A DNA stretch of 64,000 nucleotides from positions 930,001 through 994,000 of the forward strand of contig NZ_JACIJJ010000001.1 of assembly GCF_014199325.1 (NCBI RefSeq), in the 5' to 3' direction. The DNA comes from Sphingomonas yantingensis. Lineage in GTDB: Bacteria > Pseudomonadota > Alphaproteobacteria > Sphingomonadales > Sphingomonadaceae. Under the pieces are notes generated by a model, which saw only the letters and a program-made list of their open reading frames with translations, was not told the origin of the DNA and ran no database searches. Each line of letters opens with the position of its first letter. The stretch's first letter is position 1. Shown here in pieces: positions 1,359 to 57,461 of the stretch. Both the position numbers and the translations under genes were made by a program.

Positions 1359-2419
1359 ACGCGATCTCGCCTGTCAAGGCAGCCCCCGACACGATGGCCA
1401 TCGCGCGGGAGGATACGGTCCTCAGCCCGCGTTTCTACACCACCGATTTCGAGGCGCTGGACCGCATCGACGTGTCGGGCGTCCGCCACGAGTGGGACGC
1501 GCTGATCCAGGAGATGGCCGACGATCCCAACCGCCTGCATTTCAAGCGGACGGCGGCGTTCGACGGCGTGATCGAGAGCCTGCCCGACGGTCTGCGCGAG
1601 GAGTTCATCGACTTCCTCGTCAGCTCGCTGACCGCCGAGTTTTCGGGCTGCATCCTCTATGCCGAGATTGCCAAGCGGGTGAAGAATCCCGATATCAAGC
1701 AGCTGTTCAAGCTGATGAGCCGCGACGAGAGCCGGCACGCGGGCTTCATCAACGATACACTCAAGGACGCGGGGATCGGCATCGACCTCGGCTTCCTGAC
1801 GCGCACCAAGAAATACACCTATTTCAGACCAAAGTTCATCTTCTACGCGACGTATCTAAGTGAGAAGATCGGCTATGCGCGCTACATCACCATCTTCCGC
1901 CATCTGGCGCGGCACCCGGAGCTTCGCTTCCATCCGATCTTCGACTGGTTCGAATTGTGGTGCAACGACGAGTTCCGGCATGGCGACGCGTTCGCGATCC
2001 TGATGCGCACCGATCCGAAGCTGTTGACCGGCATCAACAAGCTGTGGATCCGCTTCTTCCTCGTCGCGGTCTATGCGACGATGTACGTGCGCGACCACAA
2101 CCGGCCGGCGTTCCACAAGGCGCTGGGCATCGACCCGACCGAGTATGACCGCCGCGTCTTCAACATCTGTTCGGAGATCACCCGGCAGGTCTTCCCCGTG
2201 GTCCTCGACACCGACTCGCCCCGCTTCCTCGCGCTGCTCGAACAGATGCGCCGCGTGGCGGTCGCGATCGACGCGGCCAAGGCGCGCGGCGGCATCGTCG
2301 GCGCGGTCAAGCGCGCCGGCCTGACGCTGGCGGCCGCCGCGACATTCGCGGGCCTCTACTTCACTCCGGTCAAGCGTAATGCGGCACCCGCCAACGTCCG
2401 GCTGGTGCCCGCCTGGTGA
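1355..2419 (+). CDS. acsF: Aerobic magnesium-protoporphyrin IX monomethyl ester (oxidative) cyclase
   Basis: Oxygen-dependent diiron enzyme that forms the fifth ring (ring E) of bacteriochlorophyll. The 354-residue protein carries the ferritin-like diiron ligand pattern: glutamates in [14 protein letters not shown], the DESRHAGF motif, and the later [13 protein letters not shown] motif. Start ATG overlaps the orf98 stop; the upstream extension of the open frame has no homology character. It is about the usual length for the alphaproteobacterial enzyme. Use of AcsF, with no anaerobic BchE in the window, fits an aerobic anoxygenic phototroph. The stop overlaps the GTG start of puhE. Confidence 0.97.
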
Positions 2420-3207
2420 CGGTGCCGCCGCTCCTCTTCGCGCTCCTGATGTGGTTCATCGGCACCGCCGCGGTGGTGTGGCTGTGCAGCCGCCCGCGCG
2501 CGACGTTCGGGCAGAGTTTGACGCTCGCCGGGGTTGTGGCGTTGGGTGCGGGCGGGGCGGTGTGGGCGACGGCGGGCGATACGAGTACCGGCGGCGCGTA
2601 CATCGCCTGCGCCGCGGCGATCGCGATCTGGGGCTGGCACGAGATGAGCTTCCTGATGGGCCATGTCGCTGGGCCCAACCGGGGTGAGTGCCCGGCGGGC
2701 GCCACCGGCTGGGCGCGGTTCCGGGCGGCGACAGCGACGGTGATCCATCACGAGCTGGCGATCGCGGCGACGCTGGTCGCGCTGGTCGCGCTGACCTGGG
2801 GCCAGCCCAATGCGGTCGCGCCACTTACCTTCGGCCTGCTCTTCGCGATGCGGCTGTCGGCCAAGTTCAACCTCTATCTCGGCGTCCCGAACCTGAGCGA
2901 CGAGGTGTTTCCGGTGCATCTGGCGCACCTGAAGAGCTATTTCCGCACCGCGCCGATGAACTGGTTGTTCCCGCTGTCGATCGCGGGCGGCGTCGGCGCG
3001 GCGGTAATGGCGTGGCGCGGAGCCGAACTGTCCGCGGGCGGCACGGCGGCGGGCATGACCCTTTTGGCCGGGCTTGCGGTCCTGGGCGTGACCGAGCATC
3101 TGTTTCTGGTACTTCCGCTGCGTGACGGGCGTCTGTTCGCCTGGGCGCTGCATGGCAACAAGGCGGTCCGAGCCGCCGGCATTGAGTTCGATGGGAGACG
3201 GCGATGA
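2416..3207 (+). CDS. puhE: Photosynthetic complex assembly protein 2, PuhE (DUF3623)
   Basis: 263-residue polytopic membrane protein with about six or seven hydrophobic segments. It matches the DUF3623/PuhE family, which has been linked to bacteriochlorophyll production and core-complex assembly. Visible landmarks are [45 protein letters not shown] and the histidine-rich [12 protein letters not shown]. The GTG start overlaps the acsF stop (GTGA), and its own stop overlaps the hemA ATG. Gene order acsF-puhE-hemA is usual for phototrophic alphaproteobacteria. Confidence 0.92.
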
Positions 3208-4427
3208 ATTACGACGCGGTATTCGCGCAGCAGCTCGACGGCCTGCGCGAGGCGGGGAATTACCGCGTCTTTGCCGAGATCGAGCGGCAGGCGGGCCAGT
3301 TCCCGCGTGCGCGCCGCTGGGTCGAGGGCAATCAGGTCGCTGACGTCACCGTCTGGTGCTCCAACGATTATCTGGGCATGGGCCAGCATCCCAAGGTGCT
3401 GGACGCGATGCATTCGGCGCTCGACCGCTGCGGCGCGGGTGCGGGGGGCACGCGCAACATCTCGGGCACCAACCACCAGCATGTGCTGCTCGAGGACGAA
3501 CTGGCCGACCTGCACGGCAAGGAAGCGGCGCTCATCTTCACCTCGGGCTATGTCTCGAACTGGGCGTCGCTGTCGACGCTCGCCTCGCGCCTGCCCGATT
3601 GCGTCATCCTGTCCGACGCGCTCAACCACGCCTCTATGATCGAGGGAATGCGCCACAGTCGCGCCGAGTGCCTGCGGTTCCGCCACAACGACGTCGCGCA
3701 CCTCGACGAGCTGCTCTCGGGCATCGCCCCCGGCCGGCCCAAGATCGTCGCGTTCGAGAGCGTTTATTCGATGGACGGCGACATCGCCCCGATCGAGGAG
3801 ATCATCGAGCTGTGCGAGAAGCACGGCGCGCTGTCCTACATCGACGAGGTGCACGCGGTCGGTCTCTACGGCCCGCGCGGCGGCGGCGTCGCCGAGGCGC
3901 GCGGGCTGATGCAACGCATCGACGTGATCGAGGGGACGCTGGGCAAGGCATTCGGCGTCATGGGCGGCTATATCGCCGCGTCGAAGACGCTGTGCGACTT
4001 CGTGCGCAGCTTCGCCAGCGGCTTCATCTTCTCGACCGCGCTGCCGCCGGCGATCGCCGCGGGGGCGGCGGCGTCGATCCGGCACCTGAAGGACAGTCAG
4101 ATCGAGCGGACGCGCCACCAGAACCGCGTCGCGATGGTGCGCGAGCGGCTGGACGCGATGGGCATCCCACACCTCCACAACGACAGCCACATCATCCCGG
4201 TGATGGTCGGCGATGCGCACCATGCCAAGATGATCTCCGACTGGCTGATGGAAAATCACGGCATCTACGTGCAGCCGATCAACTATCCGACCGTGCCCAA
4301 GGGGACCGAGCGGCTGCGCATCACCCCGTCGCCCGTCCACACCGACGGCGACATCGACCGTCTGGTCGAGGCGCTGAGCGAGATCTGGTCGCAATGCGCG
4401 CTGGCGCGGCGGGAGATGGCGGCCTGA
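3204..4427 (+). CDS. hemA: 5-aminolevulinate synthase
   Basis: PLP enzyme condensing glycine and succinyl-CoA to 5-aminolevulinate, the first committed tetrapyrrole step in alphaproteobacteria. The 407-residue protein opens with [23 protein letters not shown] and [13 protein letters not shown], both typical of ALAS. It has GGTRNISGT, the [11 protein letters not shown] segment, [15 protein letters not shown] with the cofactor aspartate, and [13 protein letters not shown] with the PLP-binding lysine. It is the last gene of the puh/acsF arm (ATGA overlap with puhE). A second housekeeping copy could exist elsewhere, as in other phototrophs. Here it couples precursor supply to bacteriochlorophyll synthesis. 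Confidence 0.97.
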
Positions 4428-4437
4428 GCCGCTTGGC

Positions 4438-4568
4438 GTGACCCCGGGCTTGAGCTTGGGGGGCGCTGCCTTTCTTCTAAAAGAACAAGGGGGACCCCGG
4501 ATCAAGTCCGGCGTGACGGATGATTTAGGAGTATGGCTTCGGCGTACCCCGGCCTCCGCCGGGGTACG
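4438..4568. repeat. Intergenic palindromic repeats (families A and B) between hemA and the DUF3422 gene
   Basis: The convergent gap after hemA holds two short interspersed repeats. Family A, around 4488-4518, reads GGACCCCGGATCAAGTCCGG...GTGACGG, with a degenerate inverted partner at 4438-4455. The same motif recurs near 37380, 44205 and, inverted, near 44270. Family B at 4543-4568 is a perfect hairpin: arms CGTACCCCGGC and GCCGGGGTACG, 4-nt loop. It recurs at 48470 and 48551. They lie between convergent genes, so they may act as bidirectional terminators, but there is no clear T-run. Confidence 0.75.
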
Positions 4569-4575
4569 ATCTAGA

Positions 4576-5829
4576 CTAACCGTGCAGCTTCTTCCGTACC
4601 CGCAGCATCGACAGCGCCACGCCGGCGACGACGAACGGTACCGCTGCCGCCATCGTCAGCTTCTTGTCCAGTCCCGGCACCGCCGCGGCGATATAGCCGA
4701 TCAACGCGACGAGGTAGTAGCTGATCGCCACCACCGACAGTCCCTCGACCGTCTGTTGCAGCCGTAGCTGCAGGTCGGTGCGCCGGTCCATCGAGGCGAG
4801 CAGGTCGCGGTTCTGCTTGGCCAGCGCGATGTCGATGCGCGTGCGCAGCAGTTCGCTGGTCCACGCCGCACGCTGCGACAGGTCCTCGAGCCGCGAGGTG
4901 AAGCTGTCGCAGGTGCGCACCGCGGGCATCAGCCGCCGCTCGGTGAAATCGTCGAGCGACTGGTGGCCCGCGACCGCACCGATCCGCAGCTTCTCCAGCC
5001 GCTCGATCGCAAGCTTGGCATAGGCCTGCGTCGCGCTCATGCGATAGCGCGTCTCGGTCGTCAGCTGGGCGAGCTTCGAGGAGAGATAGGTGAGTTCGCC
5101 CATCAGCGCGTCGTCCTCAGCCGTCCGCTCCGCGACCTGCGCAGTGAGGTCCGCGAGCCGCGCCTCGAGTTCGCCCACCGCGGGGGTCAGCCGCTGCGCC
5201 AGCGGCAGGCCCAGCAGCGCCATCTTGCGGTAATTGCCGAGTTCCTGAAGCCGGACGACGAGTTGCGACGGCTCGTCCCCCGCCAGCCCGCGGTCGAGGA
5301 TCGCCAGCCGGCCATAGCCGTCGGCATGCAGCCGGAAGTCGGAAACGATCCGGGCCGCTCCCCCGGCGACATCGCACTCGATGATCGCCTCGTCAGCGTC
5401 GAACCAGTCCTGCCGCTCGGCCGGGGTTGGGATGGGGGCACCGGGGGCGAGTACCGCGATATGGACGGCGCGGATGATCTCGCCTGGCATCCCCTCCAGG
5501 ATCGAGGCGAGGTGCGGCTCGAACGCGCGGCGGTCGAACGGCGCATCGAATGGCCCGGTGAGGAGCAGCGTATAGCTGGCAAATTCCGTATGCCGCTCCC
5601 AGACCAGGCAGAGGTCGCCCAGTTTGAGGACCGCATACTTGGCGGCGATCGGGATCACAATCTCGCCGCGTGCGGCGATTGCGGCGATATGGTCGCTCGC
5701 TGCGCCGCCGGTCGTCTCGCCCAGCAACGTCAGGATCTGGATCAGCCGCGCCGGCGCCGCAAAACGCGGCAACCGGCGGACGTGCATCTCCTCCGACAGC
5801 GAGGCGCGCAGCAGGTGGTTGCCGATCAC
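4576..5829 (-). CDS. DUF3422 family membrane-anchored protein
   Basis: 417-residue protein of the DUF3422 family, function unknown. The N-terminal half carries family-like stretches (HVRRLPRFAAPARLIQILTLLGE, FASYTLLLTGPFD, GYGRLAILDRGLAGDEPSQLVVRLQELGNYRKMALLGLPLAQ). The middle (about residues 225-340) is rich in heptad-like leucine and alanine and probably forms a long coiled coil. Two transmembrane segments lie near the C-terminus (about 362-384 and 389-407), ending in basic residues. It lies between the two arms of the photosynthesis cluster and is read in the same direction as puf, 46 bp downstream of pufC. It is not a known photosynthesis gene. An 11-bp hairpin sits just before its start. 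Confidence 0.85.
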   Translation of the reverse strand: MIGNHLLRASLSEEMHVRRLPRFAAPARLIQILTLLGETTGGAASDHIAAIAARGEIVIPIAAKYAVLKLGDLCLVWERHTEFASYTLLLTGPFDAPFDRRAFEPHLASILEGMPGEIIRAVHIAVLAPGAPIPTPAERQDWFDADEAIIECDVAGGAARIVSDFRLHADGYGRLAILDRGLAGDEPSQLVVRLQELGNYRKMALLGLPLAQRLTPAVGELEARLADLTAQVAERTAEDDALMGELTYLSSKLAQLTTETRYRMSATQAYAKLAIERLEKLRIGAVAGHQSLDDFTERRLMPAVRTCDSFTSRLEDLSQRAAWTSELLRTRIDIALAKQNRDLLASMDRRTDLQLRLQQTVEGLSVVAISYYLVALIGYIAAAVPGLDKKLTMAAAVPFVVAGVALSMLRVRKKLHG

Positions 5830-6997: not shown

Positions 6998-7965
6998 CGC
7001 GGGGCTCCCGGCAGGATGGCAGGATCGAGAACGCCGGTGCTGGGATAATCGGGCGCAAAATGGTGGAGCACCGCCCACAGATACCAGTTGTCGACGACGG
7101 TTCCGGTCAACAGGATGCCGATGCCGCCGGTGATGGGGCAGAGGACCGCGAACCACCACGCCCAGCGGTGGATCGATTCCATCGTCGCGTTGAACCCCAT
7201 CGTCCAGCGCCAGAACAGCGCCGCGCGTTCGGAGGCCGTACCGCGATCGGTGATCTGTTCGATCTCGCGCTCGCCGCCATAGCGCCCCACCGCCAGGATC
7301 GTCGCGCCGTGCATCGCGAAGAGCAGCGTCGAGCCGTAGAGGAAGACGATCGAGAGGCAGTGAAAGGGGTTGTAGAAGAGGTTGCCGTACCGGATCGAAA
7401 AGGCCGCGGTCCAGTCGAGGTGCGGGAAAATCCCGAACGGCACCGCCTCTGCCCAGCTGCCCATCAGGAGCGGGCGGATGAAGCCGAGGACGAGAATGAG
7501 GAAGATGCCGGCGGCGAACGCCCAGGCGACATGCGTGCCCATCCCCATCTTCTTGGCGCGCAGATAGGTGCGCGCCCAGAAGAGCAGGAGCGAAGCGGTC
7601 ATGAAGAAGCCCGCCATCTGCCACCAGCCGCCCTGCGCCAATGGCACCGAGAGCGTGAAGCCCCATTCCGGCCCCGGCGGCTCGAGCGCGAGCCAGGGAA
7701 GCTGACGCACGAACTGGATCGGGCTCCAGTTGACGCTGGCGGCCATGTTGAGGCCGATGATCTCGATCGCGACGAACGCGCACAGCAGCGAGGCGAGGCC
7801 GAGCTTGCCGAGATAGAGGGGCCCAAGCTGCGCGTTGCCGAGCTTGCCAGCCCAATAGTTGTAGGTGGCAAGGTTGGTGCGCTGGAACGTGCTGTCCGGC
7901 ACCGGCGGGCCGGCCTCCAGCGGGCCGCGTAGCTGAACCTGGGTGAAGATGTTCTGGTATTGCAT
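6994..7965 (-). CDS. pufM: Photosynthetic reaction centre M subunit
   Basis: 323-residue core subunit of the type II reaction centre, five transmembrane helices. It binds the special-pair and accessory bacteriochlorophylls, the QA quinone and, with PufL, the non-haem iron. Visible landmarks are the N-terminal [34 protein letters not shown] with the helix D histidine, the [16 protein letters not shown] segment with iron and quinone ligands, and [12 protein letters not shown] near the C-terminus. It starts 14 bp after pufL ends and overlaps pufC by four bases. Length and order are standard. Confidence 0.98.
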
Positions 7966-7979
7966 CGTCTATACCCCCT

Positions 7980-8804
7980 TCACGACCAGATCGGCAGGTT
8001 GAGCCACCAGGTCCACCATTCGGGCCACCCGCGCGTCCAGAACGGGCCGGAGATGATGATGCAGATGGCGCTCCAGAAACCCGCCGAGAGGGCGAGGAGC
8101 AGGCCGACGCGGTGGATGCCGAGTGTACCCACCGAATAGCCGATCGAGTCGCGGAAGAACGCGTCCTCATATTCCGGCGACTTCACCTCCTCGCCCTTGC
8201 CCGGATTGACCGAGGAGAGGACGAGCGCGCCGTGGAAGGCGAGCGCACCGCCGGTCATGAAGAAGAAGCTGACCGCCAGCATGTGCGCCGGATTGTAGTG
8301 GAAATGGAGATACTGATAGCCGGTGTTCGACACCCAATCGAGATGGCTGAAGATGCCGTACGGGAAGCCGAAGCCCCAGGCACCCAGCATCAGCGGGCGG
8401 ATCACGACGAGGCTGACATAGGCGAAGATCGCAAAGCCGTAGGCGAAGGGGACGTGATATCCCATACCCAGCTTGCGGCAGATCTCGACCTCGCGCAGCG
8501 CCCACGAGGTGAAGGCGGCGATCGCGCAAATGGTGATGATCTGCCAGAACCCGCCCTCGCGCAGCGGCGCCAGGCCCAACCCGTAGTCGAGGTCCGGCGG
8601 CGCGATGCTGATGAGCCAGGGGTTCCAGGTCGGCCCGAGCGAGGCCGCGTAGAAGATGAGCGCGGTGCCTAGGATCGCGGTGATCGCACTGACCACGCCG
8701 AAGAAGCCGACATAGAAGGGGCCGACCCAGAAATCGAACAGGTCGCCGCCGATCAGCGTGCCGCCCCTGACCCGATATTTCCGCTCGAAGCTCAAGAGCG
8801 CCAT
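7980..8804 (-). CDS. pufL: Photosynthetic reaction centre L subunit
   Basis: 274-residue reaction-centre subunit with five transmembrane helices. It begins [36 protein letters not shown], an unmistakable PufL N-terminus. Helix C/D landmarks [31 protein letters not shown] and [14 protein letters not shown] carry the special-pair and accessory pigment histidines. FHGALVLSS and the IGTLGIHR-like segment ([11 protein letters not shown]) carry the non-haem iron and QB-site ligands. It follows pufA after a 126-bp gap that contains a strong stem-loop, as expected for differential stability of pufBA versus pufLM mRNA. Confidence 0.98.
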
Positions 8805-35493: not shown

Positions 35494-37074
35494 ATGCGCG
35501 CCTTTGCCGATCTGCTCGACCGCCTGATCTATACCCGGTCGCGCAATGCCAAGCTGAAGCTGATCGCCGACTATCTGCGCGCGACGCCAGATCCCGATCG
35601 CGGCTGGGCGCTCGCCGCGCTGACCGGTGAAGTCGATCTCCCTGCGGTGAAGCCTGCGCTGATCCGTGCGCTGATCGCCGAGCGGGTCGATCCGGTGCTG
35701 TTTGCGATGAGCCGCGATTTCGTCGGCGATACGGCCGAGACGGTGGCGCTGCTCTGGCCCGAGCCGGCGGAGAAGCGCGCGCACAACGCCGAGCCGCTGA
35801 CGGTGGCGCAGGTTATCGACCGGCTGGCGGCGCTCACTCGTTCCGACGCGCCCGCGGTGCTGGCCGACATGCTCGACCGGCTGGAGGCGGACGAGCGCTA
35901 CGCGCTTTTGAAGCTCGCGACCGGCGGTTTGCGGGTGGGCGTGTCGGCGCGGCTCGCAAAGACCGCGCTGGCGCAGGCGTTCGGGCTCGACGTCGATGCG
36001 GTAGAGGAGGTGTGGCACGGCATCGACGCGCCGTACCCCGAACTGTTCGACTGGGCCGAGGGGCGGGGCGCACAGCCGACCGCCGCCGACGTGCCGGTGT
36101 TCCGCCCGTTCATGCTCGCGCATCCGCTGGAGGACGGGACGGTCGATCTCGCCGACTATGCCGCCGAATGGAAATGGGACGGCATCCGCGTCCAGCTTGT
36201 CCATGTCGCGGGGCAGACGCGCCTATACAGCCGCGCGGGCGACGACGTGACGGGCAGTTTTCCGGAGGTGGCCGCCGCGTTTCAGACGCCGGGCGTGCTC
36301 GACGGCGAGTTGCTGGTGCGCGGCGATGCGCAGGGCGGGGAGGCGGCGAGCTTCAACGCGCTGCAACAGCGGTTGGGGCGCAAGGTCGTGTCCGCGAAGA
36401 TGCTGGCCGATTACCCCGCCTTCGTTAGGCTCTACGACATCCTGTTCGACGGACCGGAGGATTTGCGCACGCTGCCGTGGACCGAGCGGCGCGCGCGGCT
36501 GGAGGCGTTCGTGGGCCGGCTCGATCCCGAGACCTTCGACCTCAGCCGCGTGATCGACTCGATCGACTTTGCGGCGCTGGGGGAGGTGCGGGCGGGCGCC
36601 CGCGACTCGGCGATCGAGGGGGTGATGCTCAAGCGGCGCGACAGCCCCTATGTCGCCGGGCGGCGCGTCGGTCTCTGGTACAAGTGGAAGCGCGATCCGC
36701 TGACCGCCGATTGCGTGATGATGTACGCGCAGCGCGGCAGCGGCAAGCGGTCGAGCTTCTACAGCGACTATACCTTCGGCTGCTGGACCGAGGACGGCGA
36801 ACTGCTGCCCGTCGGTAAGGCCTATTCGGGGTTCACCGACGAGGAGCTAAAATGGCTCGACCGGTTCGTGCGCAATCACACTATCCAGCGCTTCGGCCCG
36901 GTGCGAGAGGTCGAGAAGACGCTGGTGCTGGAGGTCGCGTTCGACTCGATCCACGAATCGAAGCGGCACAAGTCGGGGCTCGCCATGCGCTTCCCCCGCA
37001 TCGCGCGGATCCGGCGTGACAAGCCTGCGGGCGAAGCCGACCGGATCGAGACGCTGCGGCGGATGGTGACGTGA
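35494..37074 (+). CDS. ATP-dependent DNA ligase (cisplatin damage response type)
   Basis: 526-residue ATP-dependent DNA ligase. It begins MRAFADLLDRLIYTRSRNAKLKLIADYLR, characteristic of the family annotated as cisplatin damage response ligases. The nucleotidyltransferase motif I is WKWDGIRVQL with the adenylated lysine at position 227. Further motifs: RLYSRAGDDVTGSFPEV, LDGELLV, IEGVMLKRRDSPY and WYKWKRDPLTADCVMMYA. In many alphaproteobacteria it is paired with an exonuclease and a DEXH helicase; those partners are not adjacent here. Probably acts in DNA repair beside the NAD-dependent replicative ligase. Confidence 0.93.
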   Translation: MRAFADLLDRLIYTRSRNAKLKLIADYLRATPDPDRGWALAALTGEVDLPAVKPALIRALIAERVDPVLFAMSRDFVGDTAETVALLWPEPAEKRAHNAEPLTVAQVIDRLAALTRSDAPAVLADMLDRLEADERYALLKLATGGLRVGVSARLAKTALAQAFGLDVDAVEEVWHGIDAPYPELFDWAEGRGAQPTAADVPVFRPFMLAHPLEDGTVDLADYAAEWKWDGIRVQLVHVAGQTRLYSRAGDDVTGSFPEVAAAFQTPGVLDGELLVRGDAQGGEAASFNALQQRLGRKVVSAKMLADYPAFVRLYDILFDGPEDLRTLPWTERRARLEAFVGRLDPETFDLSRVIDSIDFAALGEVRAGARDSAIEGVMLKRRDSPYVAGRRVGLWYKWKRDPLTADCVMMYAQRGSGKRSSFYSDYTFGCWTEDGELLPVGKAYSGFTDEELKWLDRFVRNHTIQRFGPVREVEKTLVLEVAFDSIHESKRHKSGLAMRFPRIARIRRDKPAGEADRIETLRRMVT

Positions 37075-37394
37075 GGGCGCTGCTTGCGGCGGTGCTCGGG
37101 CTGGTGCTGGCGCTGGGGTCGAGCTTCGTCGCGGCGGGGACGGCGGTGGTGGTCTATCCCGACATCCTGGTGTGCGAGCGGGGATGCACCGTCGTCGCGA
37201 GCGGCTGGCCGCTTCGCTACGCGCGCGATTATCCCGGGCTGTCGGTGGTGGGCCGCACCGACGCGTTCGAGGCGTGGCTGGGCGGCGACCGGCTGGATTT
37301 GGTGCCATTCGCCGTTGATTGGGGCCTGTGGATCGCGATCGCAGGCGCCCTGCTAGCGCTCATCGGAAGAAGGAAGAAGCGGGACCCGGATTAA
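37071..37394 (+). CDS. Hypothetical membrane protein, two transmembrane segments
   Basis: 107-residue protein. GTG start overlaps the ligase stop. An N-terminal hydrophobic segment (about 3-30, possibly a signal anchor), a middle part with two cysteines (VCERGCTVVASGWPLRYARDYPG), and a C-terminal helix (WGLWIAIAGALLALIG) are followed by RRKKRDPD. It looks like a small inner-membrane protein with an external loop. The last codons run into a family A palindromic repeat (from about 37375), so the C-terminus is partly repeat-derived. I recognise no family. Confidence 0.7.
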   Translation: MRALLAAVLGLVLALGSSFVAAGTAVVVYPDILVCERGCTVVASGWPLRYARDYPGLSVVGRTDAFEAWLGGDRLDLVPFAVDWGLWIAIAGALLALIGRRKKRDPD

Positions 37395-37408
37395 GTCCGG
37401 AGTGACGG
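37375..37408. repeat. Family A palindromic repeat between convergent genes
   Basis: Contains GAAGCGGGACCCGGATTAAG followed by TCCGGAGTGACGG, the same motif as at about 4488, 44197 and 44264. It spans the end of the small membrane gene and the 22-bp gap before the stop of the convergent LOV-HTH gene. It could act as a transcription stop or mRNA 3'-end structure. No T-run follows. Confidence 0.65.
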
Positions 37409-37416
37409 TGCGTGGC

Positions 37417-38043
37417 TTAAAGCCCCGCCTCGACCGCCAGCCGCACCATTTCGGCCGAGCGGCTGATGCCGAGCCGTTCCATCACGATCGCTCGGTGCAT
37501 CTTCACCGTCTTTTCCGACAGGCCCAGCACGCCGGCGATCTGTTTGTTGAGCAGCCCCTTCGCGACGAGCATCAGCACCTGGCGCTGCCGCTCGGACAAG
37601 GCCTTAATGCTCTCGGCGGCGCGGATGCGGCGGCTGGTGGAGGGGCCGGGCACACCTTCCGCCAGTTCGACCTGCGAGCCGACAAAATAGGCGAGGTCAC
37701 CCCTTTCGTCGAACATCGGCGCCACGACGACGGCGTTGCGGAACGGCGTGCCGCACTTCTTGTAGTTGAGGATCTCGACCAGCACCGGCCGCTGTTCACG
37801 CACGCCAGCCCGGATTTCCTCAGTGAGCCAGGGCTCGGTCCCCTTGCCGGCAAGGAAGCGGCAGTTGCGGCCGACGATCTCGTCGCGGTTGTAGCCGGTC
37901 AGCGTGCAGAACGACTGATTACACGCAACGATCGGATTGTCCTGAATGCGCGGGTTGGAAATCACCGACGCAATCGGGCTGTCAGCGATCATCGCCTCGA
38001 CCCAAGGCTCGATGGTCAGGACCGGTTCAGGGAATGGCGACAT
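37417..38043 (-). CDS. LOV-HTH blue-light-regulated transcription factor (EL222-like)
   Basis: 208-residue regulator with an N-terminal LOV (flavin-binding PAS) domain (about 20-125) and a LuxR-type helix-turn-helix (about 146-205). The LOV signature GRNCRFLAG contains the adduct-forming cysteine (Cys61), and YFVGSQVE has the flavin-contacting glutamine (Gln124). It strongly resembles EL222 of Erythrobacter: [37 protein letters not shown] and [11 protein letters not shown] are shared, as I recall that protein. EL222 is released to dimerise and bind DNA in blue light. Cys98 replaces the usual aspartate of KKDGTPF. Start ATG 38043; an upstream extension would run into lptA. Confidence 0.93.
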
Positions 38044-38110
38044 GACCGTACAATAAACAATCCGGCCAAGTTGTTCCAGTAGCGTTACGCCTTTCGCGAT
38101 GAACCGCGTG

Positions 38111-38656
38111 CTACTGTCGTTCCGGTACCGTGAATCGCCCAGTGACCCGGCCGCTCTGGCGCACGACACCGTTGTCGGTCGAGGTGCCGGCGGCGGCGCC
38201 GCCGACCGAGGAGCCGTCGATCACTGCGCGTCCGGTGTCGAGGTTGATCGACAGCCGCCCGCCGGTGACGGTGTTCGTCCCCTGCGTCAGCGACACCGCG
38301 CCCAGCATCGTAATGACCCGGCGGTTGAGGTCGTAGACGCCGTATTGCGCGCGCGCCTTCTGCTGCGGCCGCACGACGGTCACCCCGCCCGACGCGTCGA
38401 GGCGCGACACCTGCGGGCTGTCGCCGATCACCTGGCCGGTATAGGCGACGGTCACGCGGTCGGCGGTCAGCGTCATGTTCGACTGGCGGATATTGACCCC
38501 GCCGGACAGGACGGCGCGGTTGGCCTTGTCCTGAAGCTCGATCGCATTGGCGGCGAAGTCGATCGGCGCGCTGGTGTCGTGGCGCTGCGCACGTGCGGCA
38601 CTGGGAAACGCCGTGCCGGCAAGCACGAGAGCGAGAAGGGCTGGGGCGCGAAGCAT
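38111..38656 (-). CDS. lptA: LptA/OstA-like periplasmic lipopolysaccharide transport protein
   Basis: 181-residue periplasmic OstA-domain protein: signal peptide [23 protein letters not shown], then a beta-rich body ([41 protein letters not shown]). It forms the bridge carrying lipopolysaccharide, or in sphingomonads probably the glycosphingolipid or residual LPS-type outer-leaflet lipid, across the periplasm. The ATG overlaps the lptC stop (TGATG). GTG one codon earlier is an alternative. lptB was not seen downstream; the next gene is the LOV regulator. Confidence 0.88.
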
Positions 38657-39300
38657 CACTGCCTATTTGCGCGCTTCGGCACGATCCGCAAGCGGGCGTC
38701 GCCGACGATTCGCACCGTTCGGGCCTCCAGATCGGCTTCAAGGCGCTTTCCGCTGAAATTACCCTGCGGCGTCGACCCCGTCACCGCCCCGCCCGAGGCG
38801 AGCTTTTTCGAGCGCAGATCCACCGTCGCGTCGCGCGTGTCGAGCTGGTAGCCATTGGCGGCGCGCACCGCGATCGGGCCGTCGATTGCCACGCGGTCGG
38901 TGTCCATGAAATAGCGGCCCTGATTGGCGTTGATCGTCGCGGGGCCGTCGGTCAGCTCGATCCCGGCGGCAAGCTGATTGAGCCGCACGATCCGCTCGGC
39001 CGAGCTTTTCTGCACCGCCGAGCCGGCGTCGAGTTCGAATGCGCGGCCCTTGTCATCGGCGCCGCGGTATTTTGCCGACTGGCTGCGCATCCGCTCGGCG
39101 GCGATATCGACCTTGTTCTTGTCGAGCACGAACGACACGTCGCCACCGGTGAACAGCGGCGCCATGACGAGGAAGGCGGCAAGGATGCCGATCCCCATCG
39201 GCAGCGCAACCTGAAGCAGCCTGATCAGCGCATCGTGACGGCTGCCGGGCGCCGCCCAGCGCTGGCGTTCGGTGCGGACGCGGACGGCGGTCTCTGACAA
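38656..39300 (-). CDS. lptC: LPS export ABC transporter periplasmic protein LptC
   Basis: 214-residue LptC: one N-terminal transmembrane helix (about residues 29-48, LLQVALPMGIGILAAFLVMAPLF) and a periplasmic beta-jellyroll (VSFVLDKNKVDIAAERMRSQSAKYRGADDKGRAFELDAG...GRYFMDTDRVAIDGPI). The start is probably TTG 39298-39300 with GGGAG six nt upstream; no ATG fits the family N-terminus. Downstream lptA is coupled through TGATG. The RNase D-like gene lies 26 bp upstream on the same strand, so an rnd-lptC-lptA transcript is likely. Confidence 0.88.
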   Translation of the reverse strand: MSETAVRVRTERQRWAAPGSRHDALIRLLQVALPMGIGILAAFLVMAPLFTGGDVSFVLDKNKVDIAAERMRSQSAKYRGADDKGRAFELDAGSAVQKSSAERIVRLNQLAAGIELTDGPATINANQGRYFMDTDRVAIDGPIAVRAANGYQLDTRDATVDLRSKKLASGGAVTGSTPQGNFSGKRLEADLEARTVRIVGDARLRIVPKRANRQ

Positions 39301-55949: not shown

Positions 55950-57461
55950 ATGGCGAGCCAGCTCAAGCCCCTTCGCGAGTCCGTCGACCTGCGCCATCTC
56001 CGCCAGATCATCGCCGGGCTCGACGAGGGCGTGATCCTGATCGACCCCGACGAGACGCTGCTCTGGGCGAACGATGCCGCGCTTTCGATGCACGGGGTCG
56101 AGCGTCTGGAGGAGCTCGGCCGGACGGTCGACGAGTATCGCGAGCGGTTCCGCCTGCGCTATCGCAACAACCACCGGCTCGCCGCCGATGACTATCCGAT
56201 CGAGCGGGTGGTCGCCGGCGACAGCTTTTCCGAAGTGGTGGTGGAGGTGTCGGTCGGCGACGACGATACGCCCCGCTGGGTGCATCAGGTCCGCAGCCTC
56301 GTCCTCAACGACGATGACGAGGGCGAGCCAGCGATGGTCGTGCTCGTCATCCAGGACGTGACCGCGCGGTTCGAGGCGGAGGATCGCTTCGAACAGTCGT
56401 TCAACGCCAATCCCGCGCCCGCGGTCATCACGCGGCTGGCGGACCTTCGCTACGTCAAGGTCAACCAGGGCTTTCTCGACATGACCGGGCACGCGCGCGA
56501 CCAAGTGATGGCGCACACGGTTTACGAGATCGACGTGCTGCGCGAGGCGACCGACCGCGAGCTTGCCAAGTCGCGCCTGGCCGAGGGGCGCACGATTCCC
56601 CAGATGGAGGCCGAACTCGAACTGCCGGGCGGCGGGACCAAGCTGGTCATCGTCGCCGGGCAACCGATCGAGATGAGCGGCGAGCCGTGCATGCTGTTCA
56701 CCTTCGCGGATCTCGAGCCGCGCCGCTCGGCCGAGGCGGCGCTGCGCCATAGCGAGGAGCGGTTCACCCGGACCTTCCAGATGGCGCCGGTGCCGATGGC
56801 GATCGGCGCGCGCGACGGCCATCGCCTGTGCGAGATCAACGAGAGCTTCTCAGGCCTGACAGGGCATGAGGAGGCGACGATCATCGGCCGCTCGCTGGCC
56901 GAGGCGGGCCTCTGGGCCGACGAGCGGACCCGGCGGGAGGTCGAACAGGCGATCGCCGACGGCCGCGACCTGCGCGGGCATGAGGTGCGCATCGCCGCGC
57001 GGGAGGGCGGGCATATCGACTGCCTCGTCTCCACCGTCTCGATCCGGATCGGCGGCGACGACTGCGTGCTCTGGGCGTTCCAGGACATCACCCAGCGCAA
57101 GGCGACCGAAATCGAGCTCGTAGAGGCGATCGAGGCGGTGATGAAGGACACGCGCTGGTTCAGCCGGTCGATCATGGACAAGCTCGCCCGGCTGCGCGCG
57201 CCGCAGCCCGACGAGAACGGGGCGGGGATCGATGACCTGACCCCGCGCGAGCGCGAGGTGCTGGCGCAGATCTGTCGCGGGCTCGACGACAAGAGCATCG
57301 CGCGGGCGCTGGGCGTTTCGGGCAACACCGTGCGCAATCATGTCGCGCGCATCTATTCCAAGATTGGCGTCAATCGCCGCACCGCCGCCGCCGCCTGGGC
57401 GCGCGCGCGCGGTTTCGACGGCGAGGCGCTGATCGCCGGACGACTGGAGAATGGCGGATGA
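55950..57461 (+). CDS. Triple-PAS LuxR-type transcriptional regulator
   Basis: 503-residue regulator: three PAS domains (about 15-140, 145-265, 268-390) and a C-terminal LuxR helix-turn-helix (DLTPREREVLAQICRGLDDKSIARALGVSGNTVRNHVARIYSKIGVNRRTAAAAWARARG). No kinase or receiver domain is present. The PAS domains lack the GRNCRFLQ LOV signature, so light sensing by flavin-cysteine adduct is not indicated. The likely role is direct conversion of a redox or small-molecule signal into transcription. It lies within the stress cluster and its stop overlaps the next ATG. Confidence 0.9.
   Translation: MASQLKPLRESVDLRHLRQIIAGLDEGVILIDPDETLLWANDAALSMHGVERLEELGRTVDEYRERFRLRYRNNHRLAADDYPIERVVAGDSFSEVVVEVSVGDDDTPRWVHQVRSLVLNDDDEGEPAMVVLVIQDVTARFEAEDRFEQSFNANPAPAVITRLADLRYVKVNQGFLDMTGHARDQVMAHTVYEIDVLREATDRELAKSRLAEGRTIPQMEAELELPGGGTKLVIVAGQPIEMSGEPCMLFTFADLEPRRSAEAALRHSEERFTRTFQMAPVPMAIGARDGHRLCEINESFSGLTGHEEATIIGRSLAEAGLWADERTRREVEQAIADGRDLRGHEVRIAAREGGHIDCLVSTVSIRIGGDDCVLWAFQDITQRKATEIELVEAIEAVMKDTRWFSRSIMDKLARLRAPQPDENGAGIDDLTPREREVLAQICRGLDDKSIARALGVSGNTVRNHVARIYSKIGVNRRTAAAAWARARGFDGEALIAGRLENGG

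Follow-up and report, generated by a model that had tools for sequence, protein, structure and literature searches.

What does a photoreceptor of the EL222 type control in its native setting? The question is raised by a gene in a 64,000-nucleotide stretch of Sphingomonas yantingensis DNA (NCBI RefSeq assembly GCF_014199325.1, contig NZ_JACIJJ010000001.1, positions 930,001 to 994,000; "the window" in what follows), where positions 37417..38043 of the minus strand encode a 208-residue regulator plus stop codon that combines a LOV domain with a LuxR-type helix-turn-helix (HTH). Comparison with related loci suggests that EL222-type regulators have a direct natural target, predicted to lie behind their own gene. 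We put it at somewhat better than even odds that photoreceptors of this family drive a light-induced, non-Rfam RNA from that place, that in Sphingomonas the RNA is fused as a leader to a xanthorhodopsin-blh operon, so that one protein would switch on both a C-rich RNA and a second light-harvesting system, that elsewhere it is a lone small RNA (sRNA), and that the module disappeared from the lineage of the window, where the regulator persists. These conclusions about operator, promoter and RNA derive from sequence patterns in related genomes only.

The regulator itself was recognized from its open reading frame (ORF) and from Pfam and PDB matches. The ORF has an ATG start, the adduct motif GRNCRFLAG and a C-terminal LuxR-type HTH, and its best solved relative is EL222 (8a5r, E 7.9e-80; 3p7n, E 1.6e-79), with 124 of 196 aligned residues identical (63%) in a gap-free alignment of residues 13-208 that takes in both domains (LOV 78/115, HTH 39/62). 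The LOV (PAS) domain covers residues ~22-128 (37660..37980, minus strand like every feature of the gene; Pfam PAS_9 at 34-125, PDB LOV matches and the structural model) and includes the flavin-adduct cysteine Cys61 (37861..37863), a cysteine in 110/110 ortholog loci, the counterpart of EL222 Cys75. The LuxR/GerE DNA-binding domain spans residues 148-203 (37435..37602; PF00196, 61.2 bits) and its recognition-helix region residues 177-191 (37471..37515, from the ortholog alignment and the model), within which E177, T179, K181 and H183 are identical in 110/110 ortholog loci. An AlphaFold model (mean pLDDT 87.8) has the LOV strands, a linker helix at 134-147 and four HTH helices. An in-frame GTG would extend the protein to 250 residues, into the lptA-like gene upstream, and the ATG is preferred because 10 extra bases between that gene and the regulator in a sister species (locus L040) would shift the extended frame. 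Judged by the GRNCRFL adduct cysteine, a GerE HTH in a protein of ~200-220 residues in total and EL222 as closest solved relative, the gene encodes an EL222 ortholog, which belongs to an already known and laboratory-used type of blue-light-activated switch. The first-pass annotation had described an EL222-like LOV-HTH regulator in a phototroph that keeps the adduct cysteine and the LuxR HTH, and both descriptions hold, the former through the 63% identity to EL222 and the pufLM genes in the window and the latter through the ORF, the PF00196 match and the invariant Cys61.

For comparison we made use of 110 ortholog loci, the window included (108 distinct), a biased sample composed of 80 of 94 relatives found with short peptide patterns together with the loci of the best 30 matches, leaving out matches below 47% identity as well as L002 and L003. 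The 12-bp binding consensus of EL222 given in the passages of PMC10521638 available to us is RGNCYWWRGNCY, and within 60 nt 3' of the ortholog stop codon this element is present exactly in 17/110 loci and with one mismatch in a further 24/110, as compared with 0 exact and 14 one-mismatch occurrences among 285 3' ends of other genes in these loci. The exact-match rate behind orthologs is 104 times that elsewhere in the loci (18/5390 vs 17/530601 positions), and not one of 719 letter-permuted palindromes reaches 17 loci, the best attaining 12. Upstream of the orthologs the motif is at best slightly overrepresented (1/109 exact and 26/109 with one mismatch, vs 2/109 and 14/109 control stretches). 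Twenty-five sites of the rhodopsin type form a 24-bp palindrome, roughly CGATAC-GGnnCAAGGTCC-GTATCG.

The qualifier refers to the gene that follows in many of these loci. Clustering of neighbours in the 110 loci placed a microbial rhodopsin within ~2 kb in 29 and a blh-like gene in 28, and tblastn raised the rhodopsin count to 31/110 by adding L069 (tandem) and L080. The rhodopsin is the next gene downstream on the same strand in 26 loci (27 with L069), with the order regulator, rhodopsin, blh in 24 of the 26; two S. glacialis loci (L049 and L070, ~2390-5045) have the LOV-HTH gene, rhodopsin and blh in a row. In a sample of 149 genomes a rhodopsin adjoins the ortholog in 7 of 33 ortholog genomes (G029, G051, G057, G090, G112, G132 and G137). 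One genome of the same genus, G091, contains three EL222-like genes (C1:2325660, 2548368 and 1152317); its rhodopsin lies elsewhere and has only a distant one-mismatch site without an A at +39. Absence of rhodopsin from the other loci means absence over 0.9-2.5 kb downstream, as judged for twelve of them by tblastn, and L069 is counted among these other loci in the operator, spacing and module figures below unless stated to have been moved.

Counting from the first base of sites with at most one mismatch, an A stands at +39 in 22/22 rhodopsin loci and 17/22 other loci (23/23 and 16/21 once L069 is moved to the rhodopsin group), as against 8/28 of the loci whose best match has at least three mismatches, and in 21 of the 22 rhodopsin loci this A is preceded by T. 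Were the TA at +38/39 the start of a -10 element, the operator would be centred near -44, a position much like that of class II activators. A locus whose protein is 92% identical to EL222, L018, has the exact palindrome GGACCAAGGTCC and TAATTA at +38.

On the 3' side of the -10-like element a long stem encloses internal hairpins and unpaired stretches rich in C, in many cases with CCCTCC. A strong stem (score of at least 30) occurs in 30/110 ortholog 3' flanks, 7/277 flanks of other genes, 1/110 shuffled flanks and 18/400 random positions. Operator, A at +39 and stem are present together in 19/26 tandem-rhodopsin loci and 11/84 others (20/27 and 10/83 with L069 moved), and where the operator has two or more mismatches or is missing the A is found in 4/4 tandem-rhodopsin loci and 21/62 others and the stem in 1/4 and 6/62. 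Support for the pairing comes from covariation: in 15 sequences of the Sphingomonas type 15 of 25 pairs are changed on both sides, the double-changed cells number 42, a figure that none of 500 shuffles attains (mean 11.7), and sliding the pairing partners destroys the signal. A second set of six sequences yields 14 pairs, 4 of them with both sides changed, and stems of other lineages, although their letters differ, are similarly placed and laid out. None of the 4227 Rfam families gave a match at E up to 1 in 11 loci with 51489 bases. CCTCC is present in many but not all of the loops, and CCUCCUCCC is the loop motif of anti-Shine-Dalgarno (anti-SD) sRNAs of the SmelA075 kind. The RNA lies ~45-170 nt behind the operator in L049, L055, L012, L018 and others. 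Of two RNA models, R1 and R2, each detects chiefly loci of its own type. Applied to whole genomes, R1 picks up the RNA in both of those where its type was known (one of them a training sequence), and R2 does so in 3/4, all three of them training sequences, missing the genome of L018. A sister genome, G152, gives a weak R1 match (E 0.005), and there are five other weak matches; none of the six is preceded by an exact operator, although at L203 a one-mismatch site stands at another spacing.

Palindrome and stem-loop might together be only the transcription terminator of the regulator, in place of an operator and an RNA gene. The element does come directly after the stop codon, in some cases between convergent genes, and T runs are found at part of the loci: at least four T shortly after the palindrome in 5/26 non-rhodopsin sites, and a T run behind the stem in 4/16 non-rhodopsin stems (L012, L015, L019 and L045). 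Against this, the element equals the published EL222 binding consensus, is missing in exact form from all 285 other gene 3' ends and is followed at fixed spacing by an A at +39. Of the 25 rhodopsin-type sites only L023 has a T run right after the palindrome, and no four consecutive T directly follow any of 14 rhodopsin-type stems, so that transcription might continue through to rhodopsin. We therefore regard the terminator explanation as unlikely and retain the operator followed by an RNA as the preferred one.

Several points weigh against this preference. No site with at most one mismatch is present in the 60-nt 3' flank of 69/110 loci. The loci are related, so that counts are not independent, and kinship and the route by which loci were found inflate them. 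Where T runs do occur, part of the element could serve as a terminator. We also considered 20 rhodopsin regions outside the main set, 19 of them non-tandem (five in genomes with an unlinked EL222) and one tandem (L191), and in none does TA at +38/39 come after a site with no more than one mismatch; two sites (L180 and L186) are so close to the end of the stretch that this position is out of reach. L185 has an exact site without A at +39, L179 a one-mismatch site with A at +39 and no T at +38, and there are several further one-mismatch sites. Because rhodopsins elsewhere are without operator and TA, the operator goes with the 3' end of EL222 genes and not with rhodopsin as such; the selected target could be either the RNA or the rhodopsin. 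Finally, the window is without the operator module, so that the target prediction concerns relatives.

The 3' flank of the regulator in the window (37359..37416, minus strand), which is the place of operator, -10-like element and RNA in many orthologs, was subjected to a site search and a fold check. The 60-nt flank holds no operator with at most one mismatch, and there is no A at +39 and no long stem; the best site is a 12-mer with two mismatches within the palindrome CCGGACTTAATCCGG, and this palindrome includes the stop codon of a convergent gene. The 3' flanks of the sister-species loci L038-L040 and of L041, L042 and L009 likewise have no site with fewer than two mismatches. Over the S. 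yantingensis genome the RNA models give no credible match, the best E values being 0.22 for R1 (150 of 3835 first-look candidates scored) and 4.7 for R2 (150 of 593 scored), and as the models miss diverged forms and only part of the candidates was scored, absence of the RNA from this genome is unproven, a further point against the reading given above. The genome has no PF01036 (rhodopsin) match. Probably the module was lost in this lineage, or has diverged beyond R1 and R2, or was never present.

The regulator probably acts at other sites. One proposal is that in S. yantingensis it acts on general stress genes such as rpoH: an exact 12-mer precedes rpoH by ~70 nt both here and in the genomes of L038, L039 and L040, in the last of which a changed base still fits, and is kept in four species. 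Against this, the remaining 9 of the 13 sequences examined do not have the exact 12-mer, and the pattern by which it was found shows no genome-wide excess, the extended motif giving 24 matches against 45 for a reversed control. We consider action on general stress genes such as rpoH improbable. A site before a photolyase gene was rejected as a target; it falls within coding sequence, that of the gene upstream, and is present with one mismatch in 4/14 sequences (S. yantingensis and three sisters) and not in the other 10. These candidate sites elsewhere in the genome are weak. The earlier statement that the targets are unknown stands for this species, while for the EL222 family a target is now predicted.

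Taking the observations together we are largely confident in the combined explanation of an EL222 ortholog, an operator-promoter-RNA module in its relatives, a lineage in which that module was not found and a near-neutral cysteine at residue 97 (see below). Blue light would form the adduct between Cys61 and flavin, a mechanism known from EL222 work and presumed to operate here, upon which the LOV domain would release the HTH and the protein dimerise. The dimer would bind RGNCYWWRGNCY-like sites and activate transcription. In relatives such a site is situated directly behind the stop codon of the regulator and ahead of a -10-like element at fixed spacing, in what may be a class-II-type layout, and a structured RNA is predicted to start there which in Sphingomonas would run into xanthorhodopsin-blh and at other loci has no rhodopsin in the downstream flank. 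In the lineage of the window, where neither module nor rhodopsin match was found, the regulator probably acts elsewhere.

A different proposal for S. yantingensis is that the regulator acts beside PpsR in the control of photosynthesis genes, in line with the suggestion of the first-pass annotation that it may link blue light directly to transcription alongside PpsR-type redox/light control. The genes in question are at hand, as the 3.56 Mb genome includes pufLM of the photosynthetic reaction centre in the window (two PF00124 matches by Pfam, 7057..7818 and 7986..8717, minus strand) and PpsR ~12 kb outside it (G000:C1:916824-918134). Among 149 genomes of the family, full-length orthologs are found in 33, pufLM above cut-off in 26 and both in 7; 5 of 38 genomes in which the match was confined to a LOV domain within some longer protein are excluded from the ortholog count, and a sub-threshold PF00124 fragment in G118 is excluded from the pufLM count. 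No association emerges, with orthologs in 7/26 genomes with pufLM and 26/123 without (Fisher p 0.60), so the presence of the regulator is independent of the photosynthesis genes. The EL222 consensus is not enriched in the window either (1 match vs 1.45 expected by chance). Control of photosynthesis genes is accordingly quite unlikely, and the suggested link beside PpsR finds no support. The same genome has one BLUF match, and the LOV part is matched at two more places in it (C1:545721 and C5:141020); the window contains a second PAS-LuxR regulator, with two PAS regions, at 55950-57461.

The regulator also drew attention for an "extra" cysteine, said to be Cys98 in place of the usual Asp. The residue, the cysteine of KKCGTPF, is Cys97 (37753..37755, minus strand), placed by ortholog alignment and model in a turn between two beta strands where it aligns with an Asp of EL222. 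Asp is indeed the commonest residue here, although in only 70/110 loci, the others having N (19), S (14), G (4) and C (3); over 108 distinct ORFs the D/N/S/G/C counts are 69/19/13/4/3. The three nearest species, 95-98% identical, have C (L038), N (L039) and D (L040), and Cys recurs in the distant ortholog L082 (63%). In the AlphaFold model Cys97 lies in a loop (95-99) between strands 87-94 and 100-111. N93, N103 and Q124, flavin contacts in LOV domains, are the same in 110/110 loci. Only two of the 11 EL222 positions compared differ: L52 is I (I38), as in 103/110 loci, and D111 is Cys97. Val71, Ala79 and Glu84, named in passages of PMC10300134 as candidates for slower EL222 turn-off and with Glu84Asp tested there, are unaltered in the regulator. 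Could the cysteine nevertheless give the photoreceptor an altered dark recovery or redox sensing, as was proposed? It does replace the commonest residue, and cysteines in general can be redox active; the position is a variable turn that differs between species 95-98% identical, and the compared positions of the flavin pocket are unaltered, so that we consider such a role very unlikely and the proposal not borne out. Because the turn is variable and Asn, Cys and Asp alternate among such close species, Cys97 would be close to a neutral change and is probably unimportant. A cysteine at ortholog residue 41, absent from EL222, is present in 95/110 orthologs and is more constant than Cys97.

Turning to the surroundings of the gene, the nearest named relatives by protein identity are Sphingomonas spermidinifaciens (95%) and two uncultured Sphingomonas (97-98%). 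Upstream of the regulator lies the lptA-like gene (38111..38659, minus strand, by Pfam), separated from it by an intergenic region (38044..38110, minus strand) that by alignment is well conserved in L038-L040. The convergent gene on the other side (37071..37394, plus strand) encodes 107 residues and, by ORF and Pfam scan, belongs to no Pfam family. The same-strand rnd-like, lptC-like and lptA-like genes that precede the regulator are found in this order in only 4 of 111 ortholog loci, the window included (a count made with a 48% identity cut), and for this reason they are not general partners of the EL222 family. A folE gene (GTP cyclohydrolase I) is located beside the ortholog in 16 loci (for example L025, L027, L036, L085 and L116), on the opposite strand in 15, and 11 of the 16 are named Novosphingobium; one-mismatch sites occur in 7 of these 16 at scattered positions, and none is exact within 300 nt before the start. 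A conserved protein of up to ~350 residues (cluster g96) is encoded near EL222 orthologs in 21 loci (L012, L060, L065 and L088 among them); a 152-residue piece of it has no Pfam match, and it presumably resembles FAD-dependent oxidoreductases.

How does this compare with systems already described? EL222 of Erythrobacter litoralis HTCC2594 (3p7n, 8a5r) has the same LOV plus GerE layout, adduct cysteine, pocket positions and recognition helix as the regulator, from which it differs in having L52 for I38 and Asp111 for Cys97; the gene in the window is without the operator-RNA module present at L018, the 92% identical relative of EL222 through which this comparison was made. EL222 underlies several optogenetic systems according to passages of PMC9614035, and the portions of the EL222 literature consulted, that paper among them, name no native target operon. 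Searches of an open-access collection turned up no description of an operator or an RNA located behind EL222 genes, although earlier mention may exist. As to the RNA, passages of PMC3927594 describe C-rich anti-SD loops in alphaproteobacterial sRNAs (SmelA075/A099), and it resembles these in its hairpins, whose stems vary, and in unpaired, C-rich stretches similar to CCUCC. The predicted RNA described here differs in having one long basal stem behind an EL222-type operator and no Rfam match at E up to 1. CcsR RNAs presumably have loops of the anti-SD type. CcsR1-4 act in photooxidative stress according to passages of PMC7074977. The xanthorhodopsin-blh cluster of Sphingomonas sp. AAP5, described in passages of PMC7762795, resembles the tandem loci, 24 of 26 of which have the order regulator, rhodopsin, blh; there the gene next to the rhodopsin is called a histidine kinase and the rhodopsin operon was almost silent under the conditions of its discoverers. 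The AAP5 cluster differs in that the matching place in the S. glacialis loci L049 and L070 holds a LOV-HTH gene, and from this position the "histidine kinase" label is probably wrong, the gene encoding a LOV-HTH transcription factor instead; it differs from the genome of the window, which has no rhodopsin match. A later paper is said to report light-dependent xanthorhodopsin in AAP5. For a protein in optogenetic use such as EL222, the pattern in its relatives offers a specific and testable target, namely a promoter behind its own gene, a non-Rfam RNA and, in Sphingomonas, a rhodopsin operon.
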